Source: Methylophaga sp. OBS3
GTDB taxonomy: Bacteria; Pseudomonadota; Gammaproteobacteria; Nitrosococcales; Methylophagaceae
Direction of reading: 5' to 3'
Assembly (NCBI RefSeq): GCF_026319325.1
Contig: NZ_JAPDMU010000004.1
Location: 62,001-126,000 of the forward strand
DNA length: 64,000 bases
The notes beneath the pieces are model-generated. The model did no database searches and had not been told where the DNA came from. It saw nothing but the letters and a program-made list of their open reading frames with translations. Position numbers and translations under genes: made by a program. This document shows, piece after piece, positions 5,650-51,901 of the stretch; within the stretch, counting starts at the first letter, position 1, and each line of letters opens with the position of its first letter.

Positions 5650-6906
5650 TCAACGAATCTTACGGTGCAGTTGCAACAACACCGGGATAATTAATATTAA
5701 CGTCAGCCAAGGCAAAAACCTTAAAAAATCTACACTACTTAACTGACCACTAGCGGCCAACCAAGTCAGAATCAAAAAGCTCACCATGGTGAGATTTTGT
5801 ATCCAATTATTGCCAGCGAGCACGGTGCCTAGCTTTTCAATAGGTGCTTCACGTTGAATTAAGGCATTGAGTGGAATGATAAACAGACCACCAAATATGC
5901 CAAAAGCGGCGATTGCGATGGCAAATCCGATAACCGTGTTTATCAAGGTAATAACGGCAAGTGTGGCAAACAAGCCAATACCACCAATTAACATCAGACT
6001 AAAACGGATATGTTCTCGGCAAAGTCTGCCAGCGGTTAAAGAGCCAAGGATGATGCCAATCCCTGAGCAGGCGAGTAGTCCCTGAATGATAATAGTGTTG
6101 TTTTCATTTAATACGATTTTGGCAAAGGCTGGAAAGACTGCGAGCATGGTTTGTGAAATGCCCCAGAAAATCGATAAACCCAAAATACACCAGAGGATCA
6201 AACGGTCGTTACTAATGATGCTTAGGTTCTGACGCAAAGTATGACCACGCCGATACGCAGGCCAGTCAAACGTTTGTTTTGGACTCGCAGCATCTATCGC
6301 AGGTAGCTTGCGTGCAAACAGATATTCAAGACAAGAAAAGCCAACCAACAACCAGCCCAAAGGCGCGATATATTGAATTAATTCGGCTTCATTGCTGTAA
6401 GTCACATCAGCCAATAACACTTCAAAGAAAATCGAAAACAAAAAAATGCCGGTCAAAATAGCAACGATGGTGGTCGCTTGCAGAAAACCATTGGCCGAAG
6501 CCAGACTTTGCTCACCTGTTGTTTCTCGGATATAACCATATTTAGCAGGCGAATAGACGGCACTTTGTGCGGCAAGAATAAAGGTCAGTGCAAACGCTAA
6601 TTGAAACCAGCCTTGGTAATAACTCAAGGTGATGAGCAAGGTGATAAAGATCGCTGATAAGGCTGCCCAACGCATGATTTTGGGTTTGGCAAAACGATCC
6701 GATAAAAAGCCAGCCGGCGTAAACAACAAAATAAAGGGCAGCAAGATTAAGGCATTGACCACCGCCGTTAGAGCTACTTGGGTGGCGTCATCATAAATCT
6801 TGAATAGGGTGTTTTGGATGATGATCTTATGGCCGAGATCAACGACGGCATTAATAAAAGCAACTAATAAAAACGGGACCAGCCCGACGGTGCGTCCCGT
6901 CATCAT
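5650..6906 (-). CDS. MFS transporter, LplT-like
   Basis: This 418-residue protein has twelve predicted membrane spans. The N-terminal sequence LVAFINAVVDLGHKIIIQNT, the TPAGFLSDRFAKPKIM loop and the YSPAKYGYIRE stretch resemble LplT, the lysophospholipid flippase of Gram-negative bacteria. In E. coli LplT works with the acyltransferase/acyl-ACP synthetase Aas, which is sometimes fused to it. Here neither a fused acyltransferase nor an aas gene is visible within the window. The substrate assignment therefore rests on family resemblance alone. Confidence 0.8.
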   Translation of the reverse strand: MMTGRTVGLVPFLLVAFINAVVDLGHKIIIQNTLFKIYDDATQVALTAVVNALILLPFILLFTPAGFLSDRFAKPKIMRWAALSAIFITLLITLSYYQGWFQLAFALTFILAAQSAVYSPAKYGYIRETTGEQSLASANGFLQATTIVAILTGIFLFSIFFEVLLADVTYSNEAELIQYIAPLGWLLVGFSCLEYLFARKLPAIDAASPKQTFDWPAYRRGHTLRQNLSIISNDRLILWCILGLSIFWGISQTMLAVFPAFAKIVLNENNTIIIQGLLACSGIGIILGSLTAGRLCREHIRFSLMLIGGIGLFATLAVITLINTVIGFAIAIAAFGIFGGLFIIPLNALIQREAPIEKLGTVLAGNNWIQNLTMVSFLILTWLAASGQLSSVDFLRFLPWLTLILIIPVLLQLHRKIR

Positions 6907-6910
6907 AAAT

Positions 6911-7351
6911 TTAATCCGTGTCTTGCAGTCTTACCGCTAACACATCACATTTAGCGTGATGCAAAATGGCATTGGCAGTTGAACCAAGCAGCATTTTAAT
7001 ACCATGACGACCATGAGAGCCAACAACAATCAGGTCAACATCATGTTCATCTGCAATACGCACAATATCGCGACCCGGACTGCCAAATTCAGCCCATTGG
7101 TGATCACTACTGATTTGGTAGCGTTTCCCAACATCAGCTAATTGTTGTTGGCCCGCCTCAAGCAGCGAATCACGCATATCGCTGTCGACACTAATCATCG
7201 GCTCGTAAGCAAAATCGGTTAACGGAAAGTCCTCGACAATATGGCATAAACAGAGCTGTGTATCTGCGACTGCTAAAGCCTGTGCACGCTGAATGACTTC
7301 CTCGGTATGTGCTGAGAAGTCGATAGCAACGAGAATATGTTTGTATGCCAT
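6911..7351 (-). CDS. Universal stress protein (UspA family)
   Basis: This 146-residue single Usp domain starts MAYKHILVAIDFSAHTEEVI. It carries the nucleotide-binding signature GSHGRHGIKMLLGSTANAIL near the C-terminus, the G-2x-G-9x-G-S/T type found in ATP-binding Usp proteins. The ATG at 7351 is preceded by a strong GGAGGGG ribosome site, so the longer open frame upstream is not used. It follows trxB on the same strand, but a terminator hairpin lies between them, so it probably has its own promoter. It likely acts in the cytoplasm under stress; the exact role is unknown. Confidence 0.9.
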   Translation of the reverse strand: MAYKHILVAIDFSAHTEEVIQRAQALAVADTQLCLCHIVEDFPLTDFAYEPMISVDSDMRDSLLEAGQQQLADVGKRYQISSDHQWAEFGSPGRDIVRIADEHDVDLIVVGSHGRHGIKMLLGSTANAILHHAKCDVLAVRLQDTD

Positions 7352-7370
7352 GATTTTCCCCTCCGTAGAT

Positions 7371-7397
7371 ACAAAAAAGCAGGCTTTCGCCTGCTTA
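7371..7397 (-). terminator. Intrinsic terminator of trxB
   Basis: Read on the minus strand, AAGCAGGC-GAAA-GCCTGCTT forms an 8-bp stem with a GAAA tetraloop, followed by a TTTT tract. It begins a few bases after the trxB stop codon and precedes the ribosome site of the Usp gene. Confidence 0.85.
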
Positions 7398-7404
7398 TTC
7401 GATA

Positions 7405-10774
<3,370 letters not shown>

Positions 10775-46978: not shown

Positions 46979-47055
46979 TGGCGCGCCTGACAGGAATTGA
47001 ACCTGTGACCTTCGGCTTCGGAAACCGACACTCTATCCAACTGAGCTACAGGCGC
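46979..47055 (-). tRNA. tRNA-Arg (anticodon CCG)
   Basis: The minus strand gives a full cloverleaf: acceptor GCGCCTG/CAGGCGC, D-arm GCTC...GAGT, anticodon stem TCGGT/GCCGA around loop TTCCGAA (anticodon CCG, reading CGG), and T-arm ACAGG-TTCAATT-CCTGT. The discriminator is G. The 3' CCA is encoded (46979-46981). Total length 77 nt. Confidence 0.95.
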
Positions 47056-47269: not shown

Positions 47270-47617
47270 ATGACTAAATCTGTCAGCATAAAAATTCGTT
47301 TTCATAATGATGATTTTGTTGCCATCGGGCCGGGAAAAGCAGACTTGCTTGAAGCGATCAATGTTCATGGTTCTATCTCTGCTGCTGGCAGAGCAATGGG
47401 GATGTCATATAAACGTGCCTGGGATTTGGTCAAAGCAATGAATAATGGTTTTACCAAACCGTTGGTTGAAACTGTTAAAGGCGGCAGTAATGGTGGTGGC
47501 GCAACAGTTACTGAGTTAGGCCAATCGGTATTAGAAAACTACCGTCAGATTGAACAAAAAGCTTCGCACGCTGTAGAAGCCGATCTGCTTCGTATCCAAG
47601 AATTAATGGCCTCATAA
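47270..47617 (+). CDS. ModE-like winged-helix regulator, DNA-binding domain only
   Basis: This 115-residue protein is of the ModE N-terminal type: FVAIGPGKADLLEAINVHGSISAAGRAMGMSYKRAWDLVKAMN, then a wing with VKGGSNGGGATVTELGQSVLENYRQIE. ModE represses molybdate uptake genes when molybdate-bound. Full ModE has two C-terminal MOP domains that bind the oxyanion, and they are absent here. Either it senses molybdate or tungstate through a partner, or it responds in another way. I chose the ATG at 47270; a TTG at 47255 is unlikely. It heads a co-directional cluster with a TonB receptor and a TupA-like protein. Confidence 0.82.
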   Translation: MTKSVSIKIRFHNDDFVAIGPGKADLLEAINVHGSISAAGRAMGMSYKRAWDLVKAMNNGFTKPLVETVKGGSNGGGATVTELGQSVLENYRQIEQKASHAVEADLLRIQELMAS

Positions 47618-47651
47618 ATAAAATACGCACAAGCAAGGGTTTATTTACACC

Positions 47652-47682
47652 CATCGCTATATGTGTTGGAATATTCCGCTTA
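47652..47682 (+). promoter_or_regulatory. Candidate ModE-type operator upstream of the TiaS-like gene
   Basis: CATCGCTATATG is followed after six bases by GAATATTCCGC. The left part matches the recalled E. coli ModE half-site ATCGCTATATA in ten of eleven positions. The right half only partly matches TATATAACGAT. It lies 22-52 bp before the start of the next gene and directly follows the ModE-like gene. Confidence 0.45.
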
Positions 47683-47704
47683 TCCCATCCGGTAAACCTG
47701 AAGT

Positions 47705-48445
47705 ATGTCTAACAAACTTTTTATAGGTATTGATGACACCGACAATTTAGAGAGTCGGGGAACAGGTTTTCACGCTCGTTCACTTTGTGCCGCTATTAAT
47801 GAAAATGGTTTAGGTCGTTGTAGATATGTAACGCGCCACCAGCTCTTAATGAGCCCTTTGGTGCCATTTACTTCCCACAATAGTGCGGCTTGCTTGGTGG
47901 TGGAGTCTCCTAATTCTTTAGGTGATATTGAATCACTGTGCAAAACCTACTTACTGAAAAATAGTGCCGAAGGTTCAGATGCTGGTCTTTGCTTATTACC
48001 GTATGAAAATTTTGACCTAACTCTTTCAAGGTTTGGCGTGCTTTGTAAGCATCGTGTTGTGACACAAGCAGACGCAAGAGCGCTGGCTCAACAGTCACAA
48101 ATCGGTTTGTTTGGCTTAACGGGTACTGAAGATGGTGTGATTGGCGCGCTCGCTGCGGCTTCACTTTGTGCATCAGGTAATGATGGGCGTTTGCTTTGGC
48201 TAGAAGGAATGCGTGATCACGCTGAGCAAACACTAAGCCTAGAGACTTTACAGCAATCTGTTGATATCCCTGTCGTACAAAACCTTGAAGGTGCTGTTTT
48301 ACGTGATCCGCAAAGTCAAATAGTGATGGGAAGTTGGCCGCGTGCTATTTGGCTAAATGGCGAACCTTGTTTAATCGTTGAACCTGTTGAGGAACAAAGC
48401 AATGTCTGGCAAGTTGCTGCAAAAAACTATCTCAAACAGTTCTGA
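47705..48445 (+). CDS. Stand-alone protein resembling the N-terminal domain of TiaS
   Basis: This 246-residue soluble protein starts MSNKLFIGIDDTDNLESRGTGFHARSL. The IGIDDTD motif with a downstream THY/TSHN-type segment (VPFTSHNSAACL) is the signature of the ATP-using domain of archaeal TiaS, which modifies tRNA-Ile2. The OB-fold and zinc-ribbon parts of TiaS are missing, and bacteria use TilS for that tRNA job. A GLFGLTGTEDGVIGALAAASL segment resembles the conserved TEDGxIGAL region of the family. It shares an operon with ModE-like and transport genes. Function unknown, and a small-molecule kinase-type role is only a guess. Confidence 0.65.
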   Translation: MSNKLFIGIDDTDNLESRGTGFHARSLCAAINENGLGRCRYVTRHQLLMSPLVPFTSHNSAACLVVESPNSLGDIESLCKTYLLKNSAEGSDAGLCLLPYENFDLTLSRFGVLCKHRVVTQADARALAQQSQIGLFGLTGTEDGVIGALAAASLCASGNDGRLLWLEGMRDHAEQTLSLETLQQSVDIPVVQNLEGAVLRDPQSQIVMGSWPRAIWLNGEPCLIVEPVEEQSNVWQVAAKNYLKQF

Positions 48446-48959
48446 TTTACTGCAATCAGATCGCGTTCGGCATGTGCTGATATTTTTTGCTGGTGCCATG
48501 GCGATGGTGCTGCATGAGACTTTTAGGTTTGGTCTAGAACTGCCGGGCAGACAAGGGCTGACTCTGATGGCAATCATGATTTTTGTTCGCTGCAGTGCCC
48601 CTTATGCTTATACCGCAACGCTTGCAGGGGCTGGTGGCTTGGTAGCGGCATTGGTTGTTCGTAATAATCCAGAAGCCGCGGTGATTATGATCAGTCAAGG
48701 TTTCCTGCTTGATCTCAGCTATCGTGCATTATCCAGAAATCTCTCAATGCTGTGGTTACTGCCGCTGGCTGCCGGTGTTATTCACATGGTCAAACCATTA
48801 TTTAAGTTTGGTTTAATTATCATGGCTGGCGCAGAAGAAAATACCTTCAGACATGGATTAGGTTATCCATTTATTACGCACTTCCTATTTGGTTGTGTTG
48901 GCGGTTTAATCGGCTTTATGGCTTGGCTTAGCCTTAAAAAACAACAAAAATTAAAATAA
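48402..48959 (+). CDS. Small polytopic inner-membrane protein
   Basis: This 185-residue protein has about five membrane spans, with FRFGLELPGRQGLTLMAIMIFVRC and a later AGVIHMVKPLFKFGLIIMAGAEENTFRHGLGYPFITHFLFG. I do not recognise a named family. The size and glycine-rich spans are in the range of ECF-type S components or small permeases, but this is weak. The ATG at 48402 has GAGGAA in front and overlaps the TiaS-like gene by 44 bp, so the two are co-translated. It is followed by a TonB receptor after 14 bp. Confidence 0.7.
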   Translation: MSGKLLQKTISNSSDLLQSDRVRHVLIFFAGAMAMVLHETFRFGLELPGRQGLTLMAIMIFVRCSAPYAYTATLAGAGGLVAALVVRNNPEAAVIMISQGFLLDLSYRALSRNLSMLWLLPLAAGVIHMVKPLFKFGLIIMAGAEENTFRHGLGYPFITHFLFGCVGGLIGFMAWLSLKKQQKLK

Positions 48960-48973
48960 TAAGAGGGTTAAAA

Positions 48974-51046
48974 GTGAAATCTCTCCCATCGTTTACTAAG
49001 CGATATGCATACAAAAATATATCCTTAGCCATTTTTGCCGCCATTGTTGCCTCACCGGCGCTGGCAGCAGAAGAAGAGTCTGTATACGAACTAGGCAGTT
49101 TGGTTGTTAACCAGCAACCTGAAGCAGGTACCCAATATCAAATTGATCAACAAGATCTTGAGTTGATGGGAGCAAGAAGTTTAGAAGATGCTTTACGTTT
49201 ACTGCCAAGTACCAATGTTCGTTATGGTGGTGATGGTACGCCTCGCATGGACATTCGCGGCCTTCGCACACGACAAATCAAATTGCTGTTGAATGGTATT
49301 CCATTTAACTCGACATCTGATGGTCAGTTTGATCCAAGCCTGATTCCAGCTTTTGCAATTGGTCGAATTGATACCCACATCGGCGGCTCATCAGTGCTAT
49401 ATGGTGATGGTGGTATGGCGGGTGTCATTGATATCAAAACCCGTGGGGTTACGGATGGTTTTCAAGCGGCATCAAAACTAGAACGCGGCAGTGATGATTT
49501 TTGGTTAGCCAATGGTCAGGTCGGTTATGGTGATGCCGATCAAGACTTCTTCTTTGGCTATGGTGTGCGAGATCGTGATGCTTTTGCGGTATCCAACAAT
49601 TTCAATACTGATCTCGCTTCAACTGCTGATAATTTCCAAGATAATCAAGAACGTAATAATAGCGATAATCGTCGTGAAAACTTGGTGATGTCTTACCATC
49701 GAGATCTCACAAGTCGTTTGACCGTCGGAATGTTTGCCAGTTACCTAGAAGGTGAATACGGTAAACCTTCTATAACTTATGATGATAATTTTGCACAGCG
49801 AGCAAGATATGATCGTGTTGAGTCTCAGAGAGGTTATTCGCTGCAGGTCGGTGCTGATTACGATTTTACAGATAATTGGACTGGTCGATTATGGTTCTTT
49901 GATAACCATATGCAAGAGCGAAGTGCAAGATACGACGACAACTCATTTGCCAGTATCACATCTAATGGAAGTTATTTGAGTAATGAAGAAACGCAAAGCC
50001 AAGGTGTTCATGCCCAATTGATTGGTCAACTGCCAACCACTGGCAGCCAAGTGGCATTTAGTGTTGATCACCGTAATGCAGACTATGATGAAAATGGTCT
50101 GGACTGCACAATCGCTTCCGGCGGTGGCGGTGGCGGTGGCGGTGGCGGTGGCGGTGGCGGTGGCGGTGGCGGAAACCAGCCATGTCCAGTAACACCTTAT
50201 ACGCCAACGAGTACCGATGAGGATATTAGTGTTCGTTCATATGCGGTGGAATTAACACAAAGCCTTCCTTATGACATGACTGCTGTAGTGGGTATTGGAC
50301 GCCATGAATTAGACTTGTCAGGTGCGAGTGATGAAACGGCTTACAGTACGCAGTTTTCACTGAGCAAACCGTTGACTGAAGTCACTTCAGTTTATGGGAC
50401 ATTTGCGCGTAAGGCTGAGGCACCAACTCTGAGAGATCTTTATGACCCTCGTCGCGGCAATATTGAACTTGGTTTTCAACGTGCTAAACATTATGAATTA
50501 GGTATGCGTAACCAATGGCAACGTGGTTTGCTGAATATTGCGTTGTGGCAAACATATGCTGATGACTTTATTCAGCGAGATAGCGATACAAACCTATATC
50601 AAAATCGTGAAGCATTACGCTTTAAAGGTATTGATATTGATGGTGCTTATCAAGTGAACCAAAAATTCACTTTGCGAGCGGCATTGGGTTTTATGGATAG
50701 TGAAGATAAATCAACAGATGCTTTAACTAACCAATTACAGTACCGCCCAACGCACAAAGCTAGTTTGCAAGCGATTTATCAACTCACACCTCAGTGGCAG
50801 TTATCTGGTGATGTTGTCAGGATCGGGACGCAGAACTATTTCTATGAAGACAATAATAACGTTGTTTACCGTGAAAAATTGGATAGCTTTGAGCTAGTTA
50901 ATGCTCGTATCAAATATATGTTTGCTGGTGGTAATGCAGACGTTTATGCTGGTGTCGAAAACTTATTCGATAAGGATTACGAAACCAGTTATGGCTATCC
51001 TCAACCTGGCAGGTTCCTCTATACCGGCGTTAACTTACGCTACTAA
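48974..51046 (+). CDS. TonB-dependent outer-membrane receptor
   Basis: This 690-residue precursor starts at a GTG with a signal peptide ending ALAAEEE. The plug domain has ELMGARSLEDALRLLPSTNV, then RMDIRGLRTRQIKLLLNGIP and SSVLYGDGGMAGVIDIKTR. The beta-barrel ends in GRFLYTGVNLRY with a terminal aromatic. A run of 18 Gly (residues 383-400) lies between Cys378 and Cys404 in a probable extracellular loop. The substrate is unknown. Neighbouring ModE-like and TupA-like genes suggest molybdate or tungstate, perhaps as a chelate. It lies 15 bp ahead of the TupA-like gene. Confidence 0.9.
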   Translation: MKSLPSFTKRYAYKNISLAIFAAIVASPALAAEEESVYELGSLVVNQQPEAGTQYQIDQQDLELMGARSLEDALRLLPSTNVRYGGDGTPRMDIRGLRTRQIKLLLNGIPFNSTSDGQFDPSLIPAFAIGRIDTHIGGSSVLYGDGGMAGVIDIKTRGVTDGFQAASKLERGSDDFWLANGQVGYGDADQDFFFGYGVRDRDAFAVSNNFNTDLASTADNFQDNQERNNSDNRRENLVMSYHRDLTSRLTVGMFASYLEGEYGKPSITYDDNFAQRARYDRVESQRGYSLQVGADYDFTDNWTGRLWFFDNHMQERSARYDDNSFASITSNGSYLSNEETQSQGVHAQLIGQLPTTGSQVAFSVDHRNADYDENGLDCTIASGGGGGGGGGGGGGGGGGGNQPCPVTPYTPTSTDEDISVRSYAVELTQSLPYDMTAVVGIGRHELDLSGASDETAYSTQFSLSKPLTEVTSVYGTFARKAEAPTLRDLYDPRRGNIELGFQRAKHYELGMRNQWQRGLLNIALWQTYADDFIQRDSDTNLYQNREALRFKGIDIDGAYQVNQKFTLRAALGFMDSEDKSTDALTNQLQYRPTHKASLQAIYQLTPQWQLSGDVVRIGTQNYFYEDNNNVVYREKLDSFELVNARIKYMFAGGNADVYAGVENLFDKDYETSYGYPQPGRFLYTGVNLRY
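50120..50173 (+). repeat. GGCGGT hexanucleotide tract encoding polyglycine
   Basis: Eight and a half tandem copies of GGCGGT (50120-50170) and a final GGA encode 18 Gly in frame. Loss or gain of a unit changes length by two Gly and never shifts the frame, so it tunes loop length rather than switching the gene off. Confidence 0.95.
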
Positions 51047-51061
51047 TAGGCAAAAAAGCTA

Positions 51062-51901
51062 ATGCGTTCATCACTGAGCGCATTAGCTCGCTTAACCATT
51101 GTAAGTCTTGTTCTTTGGACTACCGCTTGTAGTCATTCCCCTCAGTTTCAAACTTCTAATACTATTCGACTTGCGGTCGTAAATACGCCACAAGATAGTG
51201 GTTTGATTGACTATCTGTTGGCTGACTTTACTACTGAGACTGGCTATCAAGTGAATGTTTACAGTGGCAGTGATGTTTTTGAAAGAGCACTTGATGGCCA
51301 AGCGGATTTGGTGATTGCCCATTATGGTAAATCGGGCATGCAAGAGTTTGTGCAGAGCGGTTTTGGAAGTTGGCCTAAAATGGTCTTTGCTAACCAAGTG
51401 GTTTTAATTGGCCCGATTTCTGACCCGGCAAATGTTGCAGAGGCTGATTCTCTCGAGCAAGCTCTGACGGCTATTCAGACATCACATAACAAGCTGTTAG
51501 CCAATAATAATCATGGGGTTGAGGCATTGACCAATACGATTATGGCAATGCTGAATACGACGGCAACCGCGGAATGGTTTATTGATGACGGCGTAAGTAA
51601 TAGTGAGGCCATCGAGGCTGCTGAGAAGCATCAAGCGTATGTCATTTGGGGGGCAGTGCCATTTCTGAAATATCAAGAAACACACGCTTCTGCGATGCGA
51701 ATCATTTACACCGATGATGCGGTTTTACAACGTATTATGGCAATTACTAGAGTGCTGGATGATAAACGGCCAATTAATCGTGCAGGGGCGCAAGCGCTAG
51801 AAGCTTACTTGTTACGCGATGATATTCAGGCAAAAGTATTGGCATATCGAATGGCTGATATTGATAGCCCTCTTTGGTGGCCTGCAGCGAGACATAATTA
51901 A
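51062..51901 (+). CDS. TupA-like periplasmic oxyanion-binding lipoprotein
   Basis: This 279-residue precursor has a lipobox (LWTTACSHS). The fold is a type II periplasmic binding protein of the TupA class: TPQDSGLIDYLLADFTTETGYQVNVYSGSDVFERALDGQADLVIAHYGKS, then VFANQVVLIGPISDPANV. TupA binds tungstate with high selectivity over molybdate. The TTTSTQDSGLLD start of TupA is here VVNTPQDSGLIDY, so the first ligand Thr/Ser residues differ. No tupB or tupC follows. It is the last gene before a strong hairpin. Confidence 0.78.
   Translation: MRSSLSALARLTIVSLVLWTTACSHSPQFQTSNTIRLAVVNTPQDSGLIDYLLADFTTETGYQVNVYSGSDVFERALDGQADLVIAHYGKSGMQEFVQSGFGSWPKMVFANQVVLIGPISDPANVAEADSLEQALTAIQTSHNKLLANNNHGVEALTNTIMAMLNTTATAEWFIDDGVSNSEAIEAAEKHQAYVIWGAVPFLKYQETHASAMRIIYTDDAVLQRIMAITRVLDDKRPINRAGAQALEAYLLRDDIQAKVLAYRMADIDSPLWWPAARHN

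Follow-up and report, generated by a model that had tools for sequence, protein, structure and literature searches.

The 64,000-nt stretch of Methylophaga sp. OBS3 DNA analysed here (contig NZ_JAPDMU010000004.1, positions 62,001 to 126,000; hereafter the window) carries a compact run of five open reading frames (ORFs), all on the plus strand at 47270–51901, that encode a ModE-like regulator, a TiaS-like protein (P0002), a small membrane protein (P0003), a TonB-dependent receptor and a TupA-like lipoprotein (P0005; Table 1). Successive genes are separated by 87, −44, 14 and 15 nt, the P0003 frame overlapping that of P0002 by 44 nt. These coordinates and gaps bear out an earlier note, made from the sequence alone, which had described five co-directional, tightly packed genes and connected them with molybdate or tungstate (Mo/W). 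It had also remarked on the lack of an ATP-binding cassette (ABC) ATPase or permease, and neither is present in the five-gene set.

Table 1. Genes and candidate regulatory sites of the operon, in nucleotide positions of the window.
Feature	Position	Strand	Supporting detail
ModE-like regulator, DNA-binding domain only, 115 aa	47270..47617	+	TIGR00637 E 4.8e-27; first gene in 8/8 Methylophagaceae loci
Candidate ModE operator, ATCGCTATATGTGTTGGAATATTCCGCT	47653..47680	.	17/22 against the published consensus; palindrome kept in 8/8 loci
P0002, stand-alone enzyme resembling the TiaS kinase domain, 246 aa	47705..48445	+	
P0003, solitary ECF S-component-like membrane protein, six long helices, 185 aa	48402..48959	+	
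TonB-dependent outer-membrane receptor, 690 aa, GTG start	48974..51046	+	Plug E 9e-20; barrel E 4e-28
Second, weaker candidate ModE operator, within receptor signal-peptide codons	48999..49026	.	14/22
P0005, TupA-like lipoprotein without the TupA oxyanion site, 279 aa	51062..51901	+	NF041772 42.2 bits, cut-off 400

The gene set recurs in other genomes, a check that the note had proposed. Within the Methylophagaceae, P0002 is found in 8 of 57 genomes, and all eight loci keep the order ModE-like gene, P0002, P0003, receptor (in L116 the receptor runs off the contig), with P0005 following in three (the window, L112 and L115). In a sister genus (L113–L115) the neighbours of the operon are moaE, moaC and another gene of the ModE type, joined by tupA in L114 and L115. 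Further afield, scanning GTDB contigs with P0002 as query yielded 40 loci; 14 of these (L027–L040), archaeal by record title, have TiaS-sized ORFs and served as controls. The 36 distinct P0002 loci counted below combine contig-scan loci with loci from whole genomes, leaving aside L112 (on the same contig as L001), repeat stretches of known loci and a second P0002 copy in L013. P0003 relatives lie in the examined stretches of 25 of these 36 loci and none is shown in 11; the match is weak in L009, L021 and L024, and 14 of the P0003 proteins themselves built the search profile. A TonB receptor occurs somewhere in the examined stretch of 23 of the 36. By record titles the P0002 family reaches Bacteroidota, Dehalococcoidales, Anaerolineae, Spirochaetes, Planctomycetes, Myxococcota and a thaumarchaeon. 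Directly upstream of the operon in the window, on the opposite strand, is a tRNA-Arg(CCG) gene (46979–47055), which may mark an insertion point, given the operon's patchy occurrence in the genus.

The first gene matches the ModE model TIGR00637 with 93.9 bits, slightly below the 98.5-bit cut-off, through its N-terminal domain only, and no molybdate-binding (MOP) domains were reported in its 115 residues. This is compatible with its earlier description as a DNA-binding-only ModE relative; the sensing role that the note had also suggested for the locus is not supported, gene 1 being a DNA-binding domain only. Scoring with the published ModE consensus, ATCGCTATATANNNNNNTATATAACGAT (available text of PMC2700814), as an operator of the type ATCGCTATATA-N6-TATATAACGAT, places the top match of the 64-kb window (17/22, 47653–47680) between genes 1 and 2, 24 nt 5′ of the P0002 start. 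The site in the same gap of seven relatives scores 16 to 18/22, and in all eight loci the best or tied-best match of the examined stretch (7 to 64 kb) falls in this gap; a random 109-nt gap scores at least 16 with a probability of 0.00055. Taken singly the window site is not decisive, because a score of 17 was also reached once among 20 simulated windows. A pattern derived from the eight loci occurs once in the window, and in the whole genome has just two zero-mismatch sites, this one and another 5′ of a second receptor gene. We consider 47653–47680 a candidate operator for a ModE-type regulator. The pairing resembles ModE of modABC in its putative DNA-binding domain and in operator half-sites with an identical 6-nt spacer, and differs from it in that molybdate-binding domains were not found here and the operator precedes a TiaS-like/receptor operon. 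A weaker match at 48999–49026 (14/22) scores 15 to 17/22 at the equivalent place in the seven relatives; because it lies within coding sequence, codon constraint is a possible cause of its conservation. The receptor signal peptides of the window and the seven relatives share an RY..xNI motif (KNI in six of eight, RNI or INI in the others) that coincides with this palindrome, as if the operator had shaped the protein sequence.

Neighbouring genes tie P0002 to Mo/W. At least one marker of this metabolism (ModE, TupA, Wtp, aldehyde:ferredoxin oxidoreductase (AOR), Mo-storage protein, moa/moe genes or the molybdenum cofactor (Moco) riboswitch) lies in 21 of the 36 P0002 loci, tallied by hand from the neighbour listing plus the riboswitch in L018, against none of the 14 TiaS control loci, a weak control because these are archaeal by record title and their stretches mostly shorter. 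L008 has a run of WtpA (above its cut-off), WtpB-like and WtpC-like (below theirs) genes followed by P0002, without P0003; TupA occurs in L016, L017 and L100, AOR genes with both AOR Pfam domains above cut-off in L003 and L012, and moa/moe genes in L007, L020 and L113–L115. Homologues of the Mo-storage protein, compared with its beta subunit, are found in L015 (E 4e-66), L019 (1e-66) and L025 (9e-67). The Moco riboswitch RF01055 lies 5′ of receptor–P0002–P0003 in L018 and 5′ of a FecCD-type ABC transporter and P0002 in L015. In both it is without the P3 hairpin (P3 assigned from the stem order of the model), the form that the accessible part of Regulski et al. (PMC2408646) ties to the tungsten cofactor. 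At the level of whole genomes, AOR scores above cut-off in 22 of 30 that carry P0002, and moaC is present in 26 of the 30 (24 above cut-off). Among Bacteroidota, all nine P0002 genomes have AOR compared with 2 of 295 sampled others (p 1e-15, ignoring kinship); L005, L006, L010 and L011 all bear record titles of uncultured Bacteroidales, and genomes with P0002 were gathered by a search, not a random draw.

The Methylophaga genome itself holds further Mo/W genes. ModA and ModB score above their cut-offs, accompanied by a ModC-like ATPase below its own, and a TupB–TupC-like pair (G000:C8:20400-22080, L104; both below cut-offs) has no neighbouring tupA, the canonical tupA lying about 155 kb away on the same contig. 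That gene belongs to a second Mo/W locus (G000:C8:166000-182000, L103) with another TonB receptor, moaC/D/E, two more binding proteins (one of the ModA family, above cut-off), a 449-aa protein and a ModE–periplasmic-binding-protein (PBP) protein. The zero-mismatch ModE-type site outside the operon lies here, about 20 nt 5′ of the presumed start of the receptor. We conclude that the operon very probably forms part of a Mo/W regulon.

P0002 is only weakly matched to TiaS by its single sequence (17.4 bits against a curated 600), and by profile it reaches E values of 1e-12 to 5e-11 against four TiaS-type sequences; its predicted fold is also of TiaS type. Profile and fold together confirm the stand-alone TiaS-like protein of the note. 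Like TiaS, the tRNA(Ile2) agmatidine synthetase, P0002 has the kinase (TCKD) core, including GIDDTD and the residue equivalent to Thr18 (T20). It differs from a full TiaS in falling short of the curated score and in having neither OB fold nor zinc ribbon: at 246 aa against about 420, its sequence match stops near residue 153, and it is bacterial, with an invariant RHQ motif of its own and a Mo/W context. In addition, P0002 shows similarity to the C-terminal region of methanogenesis marker protein 11 (TIGR03280, E 9e-12; 44.7 bits, cut-off 255.8), a name for which our literature search found no paper. L013 carries two adjacent copies (6075–7793), the second diverged (IDDSRQL replacing IDDTDSL), beside a FecCD-type ABC transporter. 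Homologues are found as well on a 3,820-bp Pimelobacter simplex plasmid (NZ_CP097987.1; 35% identity, 98% covered) and on two Natribaculum replicons.

P0003 models as an S-component of the energy-coupling factor (ECF) transporters, the fold covering nearly the whole protein, and its closest match in structure comparison is the S-component 5edl, which we take to be the thiamine protein YkoE. The two proteins that the note had left unexplained thus gain predicted identities, a TiaS kinase-domain enzyme and an S-component fold. P0003 shares its fold with YkoE and other ECF S-components and differs from them in that EcfT (PF02361) was not found in its own genome (assembly 94.7% complete); in 15 of the 21 genomes searched, this one among them, no EcfT was found, and among the 36 loci EcfT adjoins P0002 only in L016, L017 and L020. 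The 8 of 57 family genomes that carry P0002 are precisely those that carry P0003, and this identical distribution, together with the overlapping frames, suggests a joint step at the membrane. L016 (10873–11382) and L017 (9024–9533) encode a 169-aa secreted-looking protein whose gene lies between those for EcfT and the S-component-like protein; in L016 this protein has no Pfam or NCBIfam match worth naming, and by eye a similar-looking stretch seems to follow TupA inside one long ORF of L089.

Both receptor domains, Plug (PF07715) and barrel (PF00593), score above cut-off. The best-scoring model of the whole protein is BtuB, yet at 122.5 bits it is far from the 599.7-bit cut-off. The receptor has a run of 18 glycines (50120–50173, GGC/GGT repeats); runs of 14 to 19 occur in the receptors of L112, L117 and L118 and none in those of L113 and L115, and the run is possibly a length-variable surface loop. 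P0005 belongs to the TupA-like group of binding proteins, with a score far below a cut-off that is weak as a lone criterion, the canonical TupAs found here also falling below it (best 259). Alignment places AVVNT and NNNHGVEA where canonical TupAs have TTTST and RGDxSGTH, so that TTTS, Arg118 and Thr124 are all missing; its kin in L112, L115 and L004 are likewise without the TupA oxyanion site. P0005 differs from the TupABC system in this loss, in the lack of TupBC at the locus and in the presence of a canonical TupA elsewhere in the genome.

By analogy with cobalamin import, we propose that the operon probably serves, under ModE control, to scavenge a tungsten (or molybdenum) compound. According to the available text of PMC6072759, B12 can enter Gram-negative bacteria by BtuB and a solitary S-component, BtuM (Thiobacillus denitrificans), adjoined by BtuR as a proposed metabolic trap. 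The likeness to this BtuB–BtuM–BtuR arrangement, as far as that text describes it, lies in a TonB receptor, a small solitary S-component without an ECF module and a linked ATP-using enzyme as proposed trap; the difference is that the three roles would here be filled by different parts. With metal plentiful, the ModE-type protein would repress the operon, and shortage would open it, letting the receptor import a scarce tungsten or molybdenum complex. The accepted route of tungstate and molybdate into the cell leads through porins in the outer membrane and through ModABC, TupABC or WtpABC in the inner membrane; because a bare oxyanion should diffuse through porins, the cargo is better pictured as a complex. 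The diverged lipoprotein, where present, would pass it on, P0003, in a genome where no ECF motor was found, could allow its downhill passage through the inner membrane, and P0002 would use ATP to trap or activate it by phosphoryl transfer. In other genomes P0002 stands behind WtpABC-like, FecCD-type ABC or ECF transporters. We judge uptake, as opposed to export or sensing, to be likely, and lean towards tungsten over molybdenum as the main metal. The S-component fold of P0003 and the lost oxyanion site of P0005 suggest an organic complex, which, coupled to trapping by phosphorylation, we put forward only tentatively.

Some observations limit the earlier reading or parts of this proposal. With the TTTS, Arg118 and Thr124 positions changed, the TupA resemblance of P0005 does not demonstrate oxyanion binding; the Mo/W connection that the note had drawn from ModE and TupA resemblance is nevertheless upheld, and strengthened, by the other evidence above. 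AOR was found neither in the Methylophaga genome nor in M. thiooxydans, another bearer of the operon, contrary to a simple link with that enzyme. The Wtp-like genes that adjoin P0002 without P0003 in L008 suggest that the substrate of P0002 could be the bare oxyanion, as opposed to an organic complex. That last point leads to a possible intracellular role, in which P0002 would carry out an ATP-driven activating or storing step on the oxyanion, as the Mo-storage protein does, and the membrane genes would be auxiliary. Its association with several kinds of importer (Wtp-like, Tup, FecCD and ECF) and with Mo-storage protein, and the 11 loci in which no P0003 is shown, fit such a role; the strict co-occurrence of P0002 and P0003 in the family, in overlapping frames, does not, and we regard it as unlikely.

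The retained phosphoryl-transfer core of P0002 would also suit cofactor salvage, whereby a released compound of the tungsto- or molybdopterin type, possibly stripped of phosphate outside, would enter through the receptor and P0003 and be rephosphorylated and trapped by the TiaS-derived kinase, perhaps under the control of ModE or the Moco riboswitch. The usual cargoes of S-components and TonB receptors are organic nutrients or chelated metals, the riboswitch that controls L015 and L018 is of a type thought to sense the finished cofactor, and the loss of the P0005 oxyanion site points the same way. Most P0002 genomes can nevertheless make their own cofactor, to judge by moaC, and P0002 also adjoins the Wtp-like importers of bare tungstate; salvage thus seems quite unlikely to us. 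Were the operon a vitamin or siderophore locus (B12, thiamine or iron) whose nearness to Mo/W genes is incidental, this could explain why BtuB is the receptor's top model and 5edl, taken to be YkoE, the closest fold to P0003. Such a reading is very improbable, given the receptor's distance from the BtuB cut-off and the lack of any B12 or thiamine riboswitch at gathering score in both the window and the 22 scanned loci, where ModE operators and Moco riboswitches are present instead.

For the scavenging system that we favour, every part is of a known kind, and as judged from sequence the combination, its control and the implied substrate are apparently new. Titles and abstracts of the literature searched, which covers few subscription papers, contain neither a TonB receptor for molybdate or tungstate nor a TiaS-like protein in Mo/W metabolism. 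The terms 'molybd' and 'tungst' do not occur in the available portion of a 2024 review of TonB-dependent transporters (PMC11658791), 'TonB' does not occur in PMC6147048, and neither 'TonB' nor 'uptake' occurs in PMC12096430. If the proposal is correct, tungsten and molybdenum metabolism would gain an energy-driven passage of the outer membrane and a new enzyme family; it also provides a role open to testing for an uncharacterised TiaS-like family and for receptors whose only present label is a distant likeness to BtuB.

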